Origin: Jiella sonneratiae
GTDB taxonomy: Bacteria > Pseudomonadota > Alphaproteobacteria > Rhizobiales > Rhizobiaceae
Direction of reading: 5' to 3'
Assembly (NCBI RefSeq): GCF_017353515.1
Contig: NZ_JAFMPY010000029.1
Span: 1-59,530, forward strand
DNA: 59,530 bases
Position 1 is the stretch's first letter. Every line of letters begins with the position of its first letter. Below the pieces are notes generated by a model. That model searched no databases, was not told the DNA's origin, and saw only the letters and a list, made by a program, of their open reading frames with translations. Positions 15,145 through 22,690 of the stretch are shown piece by piece. The translations under genes were made by a program, and so were the position numbers.

Positions 15145-16998
<1,854 letters not shown>

Positions 16999-17741
16999 GG
17001 GCCTGCTCGACCGGGTGGCCGCGCTCTCGACGCGGACGGGGATGCGATTCCTGCATCTCCTCGCGCGTCATCCCGCGAAGTCGACCGGCATCGCGGTCTT
17101 CGCCGTGACCTTCACCAGCATCACGGTGAACGGTCTCTACGAGCAGCACGGCCGGCACCAGAACCCGATTCTCGCGACCCGCGTCATGGCCGCTGCGCCC
17201 GACGCGGCGCGGTTCGGCGCGCCGGCGCGCACCGTGGCGGAGCCGGAAGCGTCGATGCGCGATCCGGGCGACGCGGCGCCGGCTTCCCCGCAGATCTCGC
17301 CGGCCGGATCCACGTCGCGGCAGGTCGCGGAGACCACGCGCTCGACGCCCGCCGACGCGGTCGCGCCGGTGCGGCCTGGCCGCGTGCCGGCGCCTGCCCC
17401 GCGGCCGCTCGAACGGCCGGATCCCGAGCAGACGGCCTCGATCACGCCCGGGCAGGGCGGCCGCGTCGTGGCGCTGCCGGAAGCCAAGCCGGCGCGGTCC
17501 GGATCGGCGGCGTCCAAGCGCTTTTCCGCCATGAGCGAGGGCGAGCGGGTGAAGCTCATCCAGGCCGCGCTGTCCTCGGCGCAGGTCGCCCAGCTCTCGG
17601 TCGACGGCGTTCTCGGCGAGAAGACCAGGGCGGCGATCCGCACCTTCGAGGCGCTGGAGGGCATGGACGTCACCGGCGAGCCGGATGCCAAGGTCCTCGA
17701 TCGGCTTGCCGCGATCGGCCTCGTCGAATAGACCCGGCCGC

Positions 17742-18071
17742 GTGCGGATCACCAGCGAGCTCTTCGTCTCCCAGCTGTCGCGCCGGCTGTTCGCGGCCGG
17801 CGGCTTTGCCGCCGTCATGCGCCGGGGCGCCGAGGCGGCGGGGGCGATCTTCGTCGTCCAGCGCGGGCGCGGCGGCGTCCGGCTCTACGGGCCGGCCGTC
17901 CAGAGCCTTTCCGACGAGGAGGGCGGCCGGCGCTTCATGCTGGAGGCCGCGGAGGACGAGGCGGCGCTCGACGCGCGGTTCCAGCGCGAGGCGCGATTTG
18001 ACCCGGATTTCTGGGTGATCGAGATCGAGACCGACGAGCCGGAAGCCTTCATCGACGTCGTCGAGGCCTGA
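17742..18071 (+). CDS. DUF1491 family protein
   Basis: A 109-aa small cytosolic protein starting at GTG. It shows the DUF1491 pattern: V-R-I-T-S-E-L-F-V-S-Q-L-S-R-R, then F-A-A-G-G-F-A-A-V and R-R-G-A-E-A-A-G-A-I-F-V, ending with D-P-D-F-W-V-I-E-I-E. Function is unknown. The GTG was chosen because the conserved domain begins exactly there and no ATG is available nearby. It follows the peptidoglycan-binding gene by 10 bp and is probably co-transcribed with it. Confidence 0.85.
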   Translation: MRITSELFVSQLSRRLFAAGGFAAVMRRGAEAAGAIFVVQRGRGGVRLYGPAVQSLSDEEGGRRFMLEAAEDEAALDARFQREARFDPDFWVIEIETDEPEAFIDVVEA

Positions 18072-18076
18072 TCCGG

Positions 18077-18132
18077 GAGGCCCGGTCCGCGAGGCCCGGT
18101 CCGCGAGGTTTGCTCCGAGAGGCCCGGGACCC
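18077..18132. repeat. 14-bp tandem repeat, four copies
   Basis: The unit GAGGCCCGGTCCGC begins at 18077 and 18091, with two diverged copies at 18105 and 18119. It lies just after the DUF1491 stop, in the gap before the convergent Amt-GGDEF-EAL gene. Confidence 0.8.
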
Positions 18133-18232
18133 GCGCCGTCTCCCCCGAGCCCTTTTCCGGATGCGCGCAGGCCGTGATTTTCCGGCGCCCGGCGGCCGCG
18201 CTTTGCCCGCGCGGAGCCGCCGCCCGGCGCGA

Positions 18233-21200
18233 TCAGGCCCTGCGGGCGGTGCGGGGCTCCTTGACGATGCTCCTGAGGATCACCGCGAGCTGACTTTCCA
18301 CCGTCTGCGGAACGACATCGGCCGGCAGCGGCCGGGAAAACAGATAGCCCTGCACCTCGTCGCAGCGCCGGCTCGACAGGATCGTCAGCTGCTCGACGGT
18401 CTCGACGCCCTCGGCGACGATCGTCAGCTTCAGCGCCCGGCCGAGATTGATCACCGCTTCGGCGATCGCCAGCGAGCTGTTGTCGTTGGCGAGGTTCATG
18501 ATGAAGGAGCGGTCGATCTTGATCGTGTCGAAGGGAAAGGCCCTGAGGTAGCTCAGCGAGGAGTAGCCAGTGCCGAAATCGTCGAGCGCCAGCCGGATGC
18601 CGCTGCGCTTCAGCGCCTTCAGCGTGGCGAGGGAGCGGTCGCGATCCTCGACGAGGATGCTCTCGGTGAGTTCGATCTCGAAACGCTCCGGCGGGAAGTC
18701 GCAGTCCTTCAGCATCTGCAGGACGTTCTCGACGAAGCCGCGGCTGCGCAGCTGGTGGCCGCTGACATTGACGCTGACCGGCGCGCCGGAGAGCTTGCTC
18801 AGGCTGAGCCGGCAGGCCTCGCGGATCACCCAGTTGCCGATGGCGTCGATCCGGCCCGACTGCTCGGCGATCGGGATGAACAGGCCGGGGCCGATCTGGC
18901 CGCGCTCCGGATGTTCCCAGCGCACCAGCGCCTCGTAGCAGATGATCGCGCCGCTGCTCATCGAGACCCGCGGCTGGAAGCAGAGCGACAGCTCGCCCCG
19001 TTCGACCACGCTGGCGAGATCCGCCTCGAGCTCGCGCCTGACCTTGAGCTCGGTGTCCATGCCCGGCTCGAACCCCGCGAAGGTGTTCCGGCCCTGCCGC
19101 TTGGCGTGGTAGAGGGCCGTGTCGGCCCGCGAGATCAGCGCCTCCTGCTCGACGGCGTCGTCCGGCGTCAGGGCGAAGCCGACGCTCGCCCCGGGCCGGA
19201 TCTGGATGCCGTTGCCGACGTCCACCGGTTCCGAGATCGCCCGGACGATCCTAAAGGCGAGATCGGCGACCTGGTTGCGGAAGGCCGCCTCGGTCTGGAT
19301 CACCGCGAACTCGTCGCCGCCCAGCCGGGCGACGATGGCGCTCCTGCCGGCCACCGCGCAGAGCCGCTCGGCCGTCGCGCGCAGCACGGCGTCGCCCGCC
19401 GGATGGCCGTAGAGGTCGTTGATGTCCTTGAAGTGGTCGAGGTCGACGCTGATCAGCGCGGCGCTGCGGCCGGTTTCCCGGGACCGCAGGATGACCGTCT
19501 CGAGCCGGTTCGCGAAGAGCGCGCGGTTCGGCAGCTGCGTCAGCGTGTCGTGGTGGGCGGTGAAGCGCAGCTGCTCTTCGGCCGCCTTGCGCTCGCTGAT
19601 GTCGGCGAAGGCCATGACCCGGGCGGCGACGCCGCGCAGCACGATGGCGCGCGAGCGCACCTCGACGGCGATCGGCGAGCCGTCGGCCCGCTTCAGCGAC
19701 AGTTCGAGCACCTTCGTCGATTCCGAGGCCATGAGTTCGGCGACCGTCGCCTCGCTGCAGTCGTCGACGAGGTCGGCGACCGGGGTTCCGACGAGATCGG
19801 CGCCGGGGCGGTCGACGAGGCGCGCGAGGGCGGCGTTCATGTCGACCACCCGACCGTCGACGACGACGGCGAGGCCTTCGAAGGCGGCGTCGCCGATGGC
19901 GGCGAGGCGTTCGGCCTCCTGGGTGGAGCGGTGCAGCGCCTCGCGGTCGCGGCGGGCCATTTCGGAATTTTCGATCTCGTCGAGAAAGGCGTTGAACAGC
20001 CGGGTGACGCTCTCGGCCTCGTCGCCGGTCTCGACCGGCAGGCGGTGGCTGAGGTCGATGCGGCCCGAGATATAAGCGGTGAGGGCGTTTTCGAGGCTGC
20101 CGGTACCGAGCACCGTGCCGTGCTCGGCCTGGTTGAGGCCGCGCTCCTCGTCGGCGGGGCTGACGCGGATCGGCTCGATCCGGTCGGCGATCCGGAAGAA
20201 CAGATAGGCGATCGGGAAGGTCCAGAGGAAGTTGACGCCGGCACCGGCCGCCTGGACCCCGAGCTGCAGGAGCCGATCGCCGTCGACGAGGGCGTCGCTC
20301 GGCGCGAGAAGCGCCGGCGCCAGCGTTCCGGCGATGCCGGCAAAGCCGTGGCAGCCGATGGCGCCGACGGCGTCGTCGATCCCGCAGCGGGTGACGAGAT
20401 CGTTGCCGAGGATGGCGATCAGCCCGCCGGCGACGCCGACCGTCATGGCGCCGGCGCCGTCGAGGACGTGGCAGCCGGCAGTGACCGCGACGAGGCCGCC
20501 GATGAGACCGCAGATCGGCATTTCCGGCCGGGTGATGCCGTCTTTCCAGAGGCCGTAGAGATAGCCCGCCGTTCCGCCGCAGCCGGCCGCCAGCACGGTG
20601 TTGGCGATGATCGAGGCGATGGCGGGGGTCGCCTTGATCGTCGAGCCGCCGTTGAAGCCGACCCAGCCGACGAAGATGATCATCGCGCCGGCCGTCGCCA
20701 GCACGGCGCTGTGGCCCTGGATGTGCCGGATGGTCCCGTCGGGGGCGAATCGGCCGATCCGCGGCCCGAGGACGATGCAGGCGGCAAGCGAGATCCACGC
20801 GCCGGTCGAGTGCACGACGGTCGAGCCGGCGAAGTCGATGAAGCCGATATTGGCGAGAAAGGCGGAGTCGCTGTGCTGCAGCGCGTTGCCCCACGCCCAG
20901 TGGGTGAACACCGGATAGATGAAGGCGGCGATCAGGATCGACACCACCCCGTAGACGGCGAGCCGCAGACGCTCCGCCGCGGCGCCCGAGACGATGGTCG
21001 CCGAGGTGCCGCAGAACATCACCTGGAAGGCGAAGAAGGCGTGTTCGCCGGGGGTGAGGTCGCGCAGGAAGGCGAAGCGCTGCTCGTGGCCGAAGCCGTA
21101 TCCGCTGTCGCGGCCGAACGCGAACATGAAGCCGACCGCCGCGAAGGCGACGATCGACAGGAGAAGGTCGAGAAGGTTCTTTTGGGCGACGTTGATCGAG

Positions 21201-21394
21201 TTCTTCGAGCGCACGAGGCCGGCCTCGAGCAACAGGAAGCCGATCTGCATCAAAAGCACGAGGCCCGCCGAGATCAGCACCCAGACATGGACGTCGTCCG
21301 CCGGCTGCGGAAGGTCACCGGCGGCCTCGGTGGCGAAGGCGGGGGCGGCACCGCATGCGAGGGCAAGGAGAACAGTGCTGAGAAAATACCGCAT
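18233..21394 (-). CDS. ammonium transporter (Amt)-HAMP-PAS-GGDEF-EAL fusion protein
   Basis: A 1053-aa single chain. A signal peptide (1-20) and a full Amt/Rh/MEP domain (about 35-405, eleven membrane segments) come first. Amt pore residues are all kept: D187, both pore His (H195 in T-V-V-H and H349 in G-C-H-G), Phe-gate positions F127 and F247, and S251 in F-N-G-G-S. A HAMP-like segment (435-478), a PAS domain (500-600), a diguanylate cyclase domain with intact G-G-D-E-F (692-696) and an EAL domain (E-A-L at 821-823, D-D-F-G-T-G-Y, A-E-G-V-E-T) follow. The cyclase lacks an RxxD inhibitory site. The probable role is sensing or transporting ammonium and tuning c-di-GMP. The ATG at 21394 was chosen because it starts the signal peptide. 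Confidence 0.93.
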   Translation of the reverse strand: MRYFLSTVLLALACGAAPAFATEAAGDLPQPADDVHVWVLISAGLVLLMQIGFLLLEAGLVRSKNSINVAQKNLLDLLLSIVAFAAVGFMFAFGRDSGYGFGHEQRFAFLRDLTPGEHAFFAFQVMFCGTSATIVSGAAAERLRLAVYGVVSILIAAFIYPVFTHWAWGNALQHSDSAFLANIGFIDFAGSTVVHSTGAWISLAACIVLGPRIGRFAPDGTIRHIQGHSAVLATAGAMIIFVGWVGFNGGSTIKATPAIASIIANTVLAAGCGGTAGYLYGLWKDGITRPEMPICGLIGGLVAVTAGCHVLDGAGAMTVGVAGGLIAILGNDLVTRCGIDDAVGAIGCHGFAGIAGTLAPALLAPSDALVDGDRLLQLGVQAAGAGVNFLWTFPIAYLFFRIADRIEPIRVSPADEERGLNQAEHGTVLGTGSLENALTAYISGRIDLSHRLPVETGDEAESVTRLFNAFLDEIENSEMARRDREALHRSTQEAERLAAIGDAAFEGLAVVVDGRVVDMNAALARLVDRPGADLVGTPVADLVDDCSEATVAELMASESTKVLELSLKRADGSPIAVEVRSRAIVLRGVAARVMAFADISERKAAEEQLRFTAHHDTLTQLPNRALFANRLETVILRSRETGRSAALISVDLDHFKDINDLYGHPAGDAVLRATAERLCAVAGRSAIVARLGGDEFAVIQTEAAFRNQVADLAFRIVRAISEPVDVGNGIQIRPGASVGFALTPDDAVEQEALISRADTALYHAKRQGRNTFAGFEPGMDTELKVRRELEADLASVVERGELSLCFQPRVSMSSGAIICYEALVRWEHPERGQIGPGLFIPIAEQSGRIDAIGNWVIREACRLSLSKLSGAPVSVNVSGHQLRSRGFVENVLQMLKDCDFPPERFEIELTESILVEDRDRSLATLKALKRSGIRLALDDFGTGYSSLSYLRAFPFDTIKIDRSFIMNLANDNSSLAIAEAVINLGRALKLTIVAEGVETVEQLTILSSRRCDEVQGYLFSRPLPADVVPQTVESQLAVILRSIVKEPRTARRA

Positions 21395-21619
21395 CGGTGG
21401 TCCGCAGATTGGGGCAAGCCGGCCAATCAACTCGGATTCTTGTTAAGCAAAGCTGAAAGTCCGGCGCCTCGCGGGCCTGCCGGGAAACAAAATTCTGCGT
21501 TGCGGCATCGGCGGACGTCGACGCCGGGTCTTCCGGCCGGCATTCCCTGCCGGAAAAGGGGTCTCAGCCGCTCGGGGCGCGCCGTGGTCCGCCGGTCGGT
21601 CCGGCTATGCCGTGACCTC

Positions 21620-22507
21620 TCAGTTGCATGCGACGCGGCGGTCCAGCGCCTCGCGCATGGCCCGCACGTGCCCGGGCGTCGTGCCGCAGCATCCGCCGAC
21701 GAGCGTCGCGCCTGCCGCCCGAGCGGCGGCTGCGAAGGCGGCGAGGTCGGCCGGCCCGATCGCATGGCGCGCCCCGTCCGGGCCGGGCGCCGGCAGCCCG
21801 CAATTCGGCTTCAGCGCCAGCGCCGCGCCGGCCGGGCGGGGGAGGGCGCCCGCGATCGCCAGCGCCGATGCCGGGCCGTCGCCGCAATTGGCGCCGATGG
21901 CCAGCGGCGGTCGGGCCAGGCCGTCGAACGCCGCGGCAAAGCCCGCCGGCGCCAGCCCCGCGGGGGTGAGCCCCCGATGGTCGAAGCTCGCCGTCGCGAC
22001 GTAGGAAAGCCCCGCCGCGATCGCCGCCATCGCCGCGGCGCGGGTCTCGGCGGCCGAGACCATGGTCTCCAGCCAGACGAAATCGATCCCGCCCTGTTTC
22101 AGCCCGGCGATCTGCTCGAAGAAAATCGCGGCCATCGCGTCTTCCGCCGCTTCTCCCGTCTGCCATGTCGGCCCGACGGAGCCGGCGACGAGCACCGGCC
22201 GCAGGGAAGCGTCGGCCGCCGCGCGGGCGAGTTCCGCCGCCCGGCGGTTCAGCGCAAAGGCCCGGCCCTCTGCGCCCCAGAGCGCCAGGCGCGGAGGGTT
22301 GCCGCCGAAGGAGCAGGTCAGGATCACCTCCGACCCGGCCGCGACGAAGCTTCGGTGCAGCGCCGCGATCGCGTCCGGCCGTTCGTCGAGCCAGGTCTCC
22401 GGCGCCGTGCCGGGCGCAAGCCCTAAGGCGAAGAGATTGGTCCCCATCGCGCCGTCGGCGAGAATCACCGTTCCGGGGGCGGCCAGTCTCTCGGCGAGGG
22501 TCGGCAT
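21620..22507 (-). CDS. homocysteine S-methyltransferase family protein
   Basis: A 295-aa cytosolic TIM-barrel enzyme of the Pfam S-methyl_trans family. The N-terminal D-G-A-M-G-T motif and the three Zn-binding Cys (one in G-A-N-C-G, two in G-G-C-C-G-T-T-P) are intact, so it should transfer a methyl group to homocysteine or a related thiol from S-methylmethionine, a betaine or a corrinoid partner. The substrate is not predictable. GGAGAG abuts the first ATG (22513) but is six bases before the second (22507), which is therefore preferred. No riboswitch was recognised upstream. Confidence 0.85.
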   Translation of the reverse strand: MPTLAERLAAPGTVILADGAMGTNLFALGLAPGTAPETWLDERPDAIAALHRSFVAAGSEVILTCSFGGNPPRLALWGAEGRAFALNRRAAELARAAADASLRPVLVAGSVGPTWQTGEAAEDAMAAIFFEQIAGLKQGGIDFVWLETMVSAAETRAAAMAAIAAGLSYVATASFDHRGLTPAGLAPAGFAAAFDGLARPPLAIGANCGDGPASALAIAGALPRPAGAALALKPNCGLPAPGPDGARHAIGPADLAAFAAAARAAGATLVGGCCGTTPGHVRAMREALDRRVACN

Positions 22508-22690
22508 CGGCATCTCTCCAGGCGCGCGACGCGACCATGCGCCCGCGTCAATTGCGCCGATTCGTCGCCGGCTCTCCAGCCACGCGCCAGCCTCGGATGA
22601 TGAACTCGCAGATGCAGCGGTGGGTGGCAGGCGAATCGCGTCTCGGCCCGCTTCCGTCGGTTCGATGCATCGGGTGAGGAGCCGTGGCAG

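Follow-up and report, generated by a model that had tools for sequence, protein, structure and literature searches.

According to the accessible text of PMC5764959, Ks-Amt5, the Amt sensor of Kuenenia stuttgartiensis (PDB 6EU6), holds two ammonium ions within the membrane through Q24, E31, N47, D50, T51, T109 and T112, a site that is stated there not to be present in assimilatory Amts. The same text describes Ks-Amt5 as keeping the known pore residues without efficient translocation, its pore being blocked by three bulky residues of helix 1 (F27, Y30 and F34), and regards it as without precedent that kinase modules should sit on a trimeric core. A second protein, from Shewanella denitrificans, has been deposited in the PDB as 8QJ3 ('Receptor Sd-Amt1 (OFF-state)'), 8QJ4 (ON-state) and 8QPF (Amt1), released on 2024-06-12, and no publication on the Sd-Amt1 structures was found among the open-access matches listed. 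Here, we analyzed the gene at positions 18233-21394 of a 59,530-nt stretch of Jiella sonneratiae contig NZ_JAFMPY010000029.1 (the whole stretch is called the window below). Its product joins an Amt domain to HAMP-like, PAS, GGDEF and EAL domains, and the sequence comparisons suggest that it probably acts in the membrane as an ammonium receptor with a trimeric Amt core and controls the turnover of cyclic di-GMP (c-di-GMP).

The original prediction, made from the DNA letters without database searches, had proposed a single-chain Amt-HAMP-like-PAS-GGDEF-EAL protein, and this was borne out by an intact gene and by the domain searches. The gene is a single unbroken minus-strand frame of 1053 codons from the ATG at 21394, while the open frame itself extends from a TTG at 21430 to the stop at 18233-18235. 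Pfam matches were obtained for Ammonium_transp (E-value 3e-94), PAS_9 (4e-9), GGDEF (6e-42) and EAL (2.5e-69), with HAMP remaining below the Pfam cut-off (17.1 versus 25 bits, E 0.0071). A relaxed HAMP scan revealed a match in 8 of 18 aligned proteins (the gene product and 17 full-length relatives 46-54% identical to it), the gene product among them, with a best E of 4.5e-5, and L054, a related fusion of Amt to the chemoreceptor domain MCP, exceeds the cut-off with 29.8 bits. The predicted model of the linker comprises a helix at residues 431-442, a loop and a helix at 461-495, and the structure model of the protein has a mean pLDDT of 82.4 and a pTM of 0.46.

The pore residues named in the original prediction (D187, H195, H349, F127, F247 and S251) lie at the numbers given and are invariant in all 18 aligned proteins. 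However, pore residues cannot separate a transporter from a sensor, because Ks-Amt5 keeps them and is yet reported as non-transporting. The proposed tie between Amt and the c-di-GMP enzymes is supported, as a receptor with both output domains intact. The ammonium-site residues, which the original prediction did not name, say more on the question of transporter or sensor. The alignment places Q50, E57, N73, D76, L77, T133 and S136 of the gene product at the Ks-Amt5 site positions, so that five of the seven residues are identical and T112 is replaced by S136; Sd-Amt1 likewise has S, not T, at that position. Among 126 distinct Amt domains that were left after six short or partial Amt matches (two of L150 and one each of L081, L082, L096 and L105) had been dropped and identical duplicates removed, the signature Q-E-N-D-T-S/T was found in 77 of the 79 fused Amts. 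The two exceptions were L142, for which most positions lack data, and L132, whose pore is altered and which bears an extension. All 24 additional fused Amts outside this set carried the signature, as did 40 of 41 proteins of the Amt-HAMP-PAS-GGDEF-EAL architecture, the remaining one lacking data. L132 (549-2786) is an Amt with an extension of about 345 aa that matches no Pfam family, in which the phenylalanine gate and the S251 position are altered and the site is partly lost; it is perhaps a degenerate or different receptor.

Several observations weigh against reading the gene product as a sensor. T51 of Ks-Amt5 corresponds to L77, and one of the three pore-blocking residues of Ks-Amt5 is kept (F53), while L56 and L60 differ, so that ammonium transport by the gene product is possible. 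The fused set was mostly collected by similarity to the gene product's own Amt, which favors the signature. Moreover, the signature occurs in 2 of the 47 Amts classed as unfused in the 126-domain set, namely the whole-length L079 and also L053, where the contig stops directly behind the Amt domain, and the unfused Amt of Bacteroides finegoldii (L155, 2779-4218) carries all of it. The association of fusion with the site amounts to one or two independent pairs on the tree, too few for a test. No nitrogen-control family was found among the scanned neighbor genes, and no sigma-54-type pattern was present in 21394-21620, ahead of the gene; with up to two mismatches the pattern gave 8 matches in the window versus 14.8 expected by chance, and a nitrogen-type promoter was accordingly rejected.

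A restriction of the signature to fusions is refuted by its unfused carriers, and its use as proof of sensing is weakened by the unfused L079 and L155, since site residues in unfused Amts imply that the site need not mean sensing. The site appears common to an Amt sub-lineage rich in fusions, which makes sensing plausible without proving it. A long loop 5 was also considered as a sensor mark: it has 19 residues (G210-H228) in all 41 Amt-HAMP-PAS-GGDEF-EAL proteins, but it is not specific, as 12 of 45 unfused site-less Amts have 18-19 residues. Sd-Amt1 reads F, F and N at the pore-plug positions of the alignment, so the plug looks peculiar to Ks-Amt5 and was not taken as class-defining. The L155 Amt sits on a plasmid record and is flanked by PII and glutamine synthetase III genes.

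These data also bear on a transceptor, in which the Amt would still carry ammonium and the transport cycle, not binding at a dead-end site, would set c-di-GMP turnover. All checked pore residues (F127, W168, H195, F247, S251 and H349) are kept in the gene product, two of the three plug residues are absent, and L155, an unfused Amt that lies next to a PII gene and would thus usually serve uptake, has this intramembrane site as well. We regard such a transceptor as unlikely: Ks-Amt5 shares the pore residues yet is reported as non-translocating, the nearest PDB sequence relatives are deposited as sensor or receptor, and uptake could be left to the two other Amts of the genome.

Both output domains were found intact, as had been predicted. 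The checked GGDEF and EAL positions, which we take to be catalytic, are kept across the 18 aligned proteins except for EVL in place of EAL in L051 and GGDEY in place of GGDEF in L037. The predicted absence of an RxxD inhibitory site (I-site) was also upheld, the position reading GRSA; of the 45 Amt-GGDEF-EAL fusions that were tested, the gene product among them, 17 have RxxD (L148 was missed by the pattern), so that its absence here is not a family feature. Among the same 18 proteins, invariant positions number 127 of 391 in the Amt domain, 38 of 158 in GGDEF, 56 of 230 in EAL and 7 of 93 in PAS, the Amt domain being the most conserved and PAS the least. This gradient argues against PAS as the main input, with the Amt mainly a membrane anchor or a docking place for PII, as does the lack of PAS in the four chemoreceptor-type relatives scanned with Pfam. 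PAS domains do often govern the activity of GGDEF-EAL proteins, and the genome has two PII genes. In Azospirillum brasilense, two c-di-GMP enzymes are binding partners of PII proteins, as given in the accessible text of PMC7646526. On balance, we consider control through PAS or PII docking very unlikely.

For the favored ammonium receptor, we infer a trimer in which ammonium would enter the periplasmic vestibule and then occupy the intramembrane site of Q50, E57, N73, D76, T133 and S136. The resulting shift would leave the Amt by its last helix, reach PAS-GGDEF-EAL by way of the HAMP-like linker and there alter c-di-GMP turnover. In one state the enzyme might show net phosphodiesterase activity, with GGDEF serving as a conditional cyclase or as a GTP-sensing switch, a pattern that would be expected from the behavior of RmcA, MorA, RbdA and DosP. 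Judging by the nearest GGDEF-EAL enzymes, net breakdown of c-di-GMP is our guess for the direction, with chances about evenly balanced. Binding of ammonium is the likelier trigger than its transit, although transport is possible. External ammonium would probably steer the decision to swim or settle, with consequences for biofilm and motility. The positions of all predicted features are shown in Table 1. A plus-strand open frame of 1438 aa (18110-22426) runs antisense across the whole gene and seems to be a mere side effect of the GC-rich coding DNA.

Table 1. Features of the Amt-(HAMP-like)-PAS-GGDEF-EAL gene in the window.
Feature	Residues	Position	Strand	Basis
Whole gene, Amt-(HAMP-like)-PAS-GGDEF-EAL	1053 aa	18233..21394	minus	translation, Pfam, alignment
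Signal-peptide-like N-terminus (putative)	1-21	21332..21394	minus	translation; inference
Amt domain	37-427	20114..21286	minus	Pfam; structure-model alignment
Predicted ammonium site, helices 1-2	Q50, E57, N73, D76	21167..21247	minus	alignment to Ks-Amt5 Q24, E31, N47, D50
Predicted ammonium site, helix 4	T133, S136	20987..20998	minus	alignment to Ks-Amt5 T109, T112
HAMP-like linker	430-480	19955..20107	minus	weak Pfam match, model, full HAMP match in related L054
PAS domain	509-601	19592..19870	minus	Pfam
GGDEF domain, RLGGDEF intact, without RxxD	613-770	19085..19558	minus	Pfam, alignment
EAL domain, checked catalytic positions intact	793-1022	18329..19018	minus	Pfam, alignment

Genome searches ruled out the architecture as a rarity. 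With the Amt piece as query (E ≤ 1e-60), a match was detected in 32 of 297 genomes and 17 of 123 genera of the order sample. By profile hidden Markov models, these 32 genomes comprise 26 with HAMP-PAS-GGDEF-EAL (the gene's own included), three with Amt-MCP and one with an Amt-histidine kinase fusion, while in the last two the contig ends inside PAS and after the Amt, respectively. The same search of the family sample gave a match in 17 of 151 genomes: 15 carry Amt-HAMP-PAS-GGDEF-EAL, one has GGDEF-EAL without HAMP-like and PAS matches, and one has an MCP output. Of the 385 genomes sampled from the class, 32 matched, again with the gene's own included. The 29 other class loci examined, a tally that omits further matches, one of them with a 1039-aa frame, contained 23 kinase fusions, four MCP fusions, one unfused Amt and one that was too short to class. 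A domain recheck by locus that included PAS placed L081, with its partial Amt match, among the four MCP fusions and left all other counts as they were.

A phylum sample of 100 genomes yielded at least five outside the class with Amt and GGDEF-EAL (L113-L117). The search for other proteins of this domain order, which the original prediction had suggested, thus found it not to be unique, a second Amt-PAS-GGDEF-EAL lineage being present in other classes too. In this second lineage the RxxD I-site is present in all five, and two or three PAS stretches occur in the three that were scanned with Pfam. The claim that the five-part fusion is little described holds in that no characterized one was found among the open-access matches listed; identical fusions themselves are many, so that the refuting case named in the original prediction, many such fusions with known function, applies by half. 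The nearest named relatives (L133-L142) come from Jiella, Aurantimonas and a Fulvimarina metagenome-assembled genome (MAG), and their best Amt-linker segments are 69-90% identical to that of the gene product. The Amt frames of L142 (Aurantimonas endophytica) and L150 (a Breoghania MAG) look incomplete or interrupted in the assembly. Overall, Amt-HAMP-PAS-GGDEF-EAL is a recurrent, conserved receptor type and no oddity.

The genome of Jiella sonneratiae encodes three Amts, 14 EAL matches and two PII genes, both of the latter on contigs other than the gene's. With 14 EAL matches, the gene product is one of many c-di-GMP enzymes in the genome, and it might be an ordinary housekeeping GGDEF-EAL enzyme on which ammonium control has little cellular effect. 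The patchy presence in the order (26 of 297 genomes) agrees with this, as do the two listed genomes of the same genus, one of which has the fusion and the other no match. Against it, the 18 aligned proteins do not vary in the residues of the ammonium site or in either active site, and every protein of the architecture except the one lacking data has the site; we hold a housekeeping role to be decidedly unlikely. Another Amt of this genome, L003 (1402-3225), has diverged strongly: the outer phenylalanine is replaced by A and the residue matching S251 is C, and its branch on the tree is long.

A tree was constructed from 58 chosen Amt domains with the seven site columns excluded; in an earlier, larger Amt tree, near-identical rows had been thinned from 130 to 124. 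The HAMP-PAS-GGDEF-EAL proteins formed one group (18 rows, support 100/99), and with the MCP fusions they made up a group of 23 rows (100/99), while the second Amt-GGDEF-EAL lineage was placed apart; the deeper branches were weakly supported. A single origin of all Amt-GGDEF-EAL fusions (23 rows held together) was rejected in the approximately unbiased (AU) test (p 0.002), which implies either two or more separate fusions of GGDEF-EAL with Amt or an exchange of outputs. A single clade of all site-bearing Amts was not the best tree but was not rejected (AU p 0.10).

Amt-(HAMP)-MCP fusions were recorded in L031, L032, L033, L054, L055, L056, L153, L165-L170 and L172. The one in L153 lies on a conjugative-typed plasmid of Phaeobacter inhibens, where it is annotated as 'ammonium transporter' and adjoins a recombinase and an IS481 transposase. 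The Amt-HAMP-MCP fusions (L054, L055, L056 and L165-L170) are the nearest Amt relatives of the gene product and most share its linker type, but their output is a chemoreceptor signaling domain instead of PAS-GGDEF-EAL; no characterized example was found among the open-literature matches listed. Other relatives carry kinases as output, and such exchange of the output with the Amt kept is as expected of a receptor module. Six of the 26 order genomes with Amt-HAMP-PAS-GGDEF-EAL also encode an Amt-MCP fusion (L165-L170). A bolder and rather improbable proposal is a transceptor with two-way output, in which the threefold Amt would pass ammonium, the HAMP-like relay would flip a dimer-type output between making and breaking c-di-GMP, and Amt-HAMP would be an exchangeable receptor cassette. 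If the cassette held, a single ammonium input would steer both swimming (MCP) and settling (c-di-GMP) in one cell.

Downstream of the gene, in convergent orientation, lie genes for DUF1491 (17685-18068), a peptidoglycan-binding-domain protein (16937-17728) and a histidine kinase (15145-16995). A homocysteine S-methyltransferase gene (21623-22513) with the orientation of the fusion gene lies upstream, beyond a gap of 225 bases. In a nucleotide comparison of 18 named loci, the order with the homocysteine S-methyltransferase gene was kept in six (L133-L138), and part of the downstream side was also kept in L140. As clues to an operon, the gap and this limited conservation were set aside.

If the favored reading as an ammonium receptor is true, external ammonium would be a direct input of c-di-GMP networks; neither 'ammoni' nor 'Amt' occurs in the accessible text of a 2022 census of c-di-GMP inputs (PMC8846402). 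The Bacteroides Amt, which is unfused and has the site residues of the gene product, offers a testable counter-case to the statement on assimilatory Amts in the accessible text of PMC5764959. Kinase, cyclase, GGDEF-EAL and chemoreceptor on one receptor type also form a natural series for asking how usually dimeric outputs are driven by the fold of a trimeric transporter.

Compared with known systems, the best PDB matches by sequence were 8QPF and 8QJ3/8QJ4 for the whole chain, and 6EU6 with the same entries for the Amt domain (E-values of 8e-86 for Ks-Amt5, 6e-83 for Sd-Amt1 and 2.5e-41 for Af-Amt1). Foldseek placed Sd-Amt1 and Ks-Amt5 above other Amts, with target-normalized TM-scores of 0.92-0.93, the TM-score of the model to Af-Amt1 being equal (0.93). 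The AmtB and GlnK-regulated channels share the fold and pore residues of the gene product but have no fusion, and where the gene product has QFENDTS at the seven site positions, E. coli AmtB shows TIYVTGV and Af-Amt1 shows VVYSSAT. The GGDEF-EAL or PAS-GGDEF-EAL output is shared with PA0575 (42% identity in the matched part), MorA (40%), PA0861 (28%) and DosP (23%), where we take PA0575 to be RmcA and PA0861 to be RbdA. RmcA, MorA, RbdA and DosP have other inputs and are not known to contain an Amt. Ks-Amt5 uses Amt as a sensor and has, like the gene product and some unfused Amts, a long loop 5, while its output is a histidine kinase without HAMP or PAS (accessible text of PMC5764959). Among the open-access matches listed, with subscription journals mostly outside the scope, no published description of an Amt-GGDEF-EAL protein was found.

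Sd-Amt1, like the gene product, has Amt and GGDEF on one chain and keeps the six-residue ammonium-site signature (8QJ3), and its Amt is 38-39% identical to that of the gene product over about 395 columns, with a root-mean-square deviation of 1.6-2.6 Å to the model. Its chain of 644-661 aa differs in that GGDEF alone is matched after the Amt, with no EAL match, and since its coordinates in Foldseek span 389-402 residues, the GGDEF part seems not to be modeled. Because these OFF- and ON-state structures were already deposited, the link from Amt to c-di-GMP is not new. The novelty, as judged from sequence, lies in the HAMP-PAS-GGDEF-EAL output, in which both active sites are intact and for which no characterized example was found. 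The gene product is thus a real, well-conserved variant of the sensor Amts, the general idea of which was already present in deposited structures.

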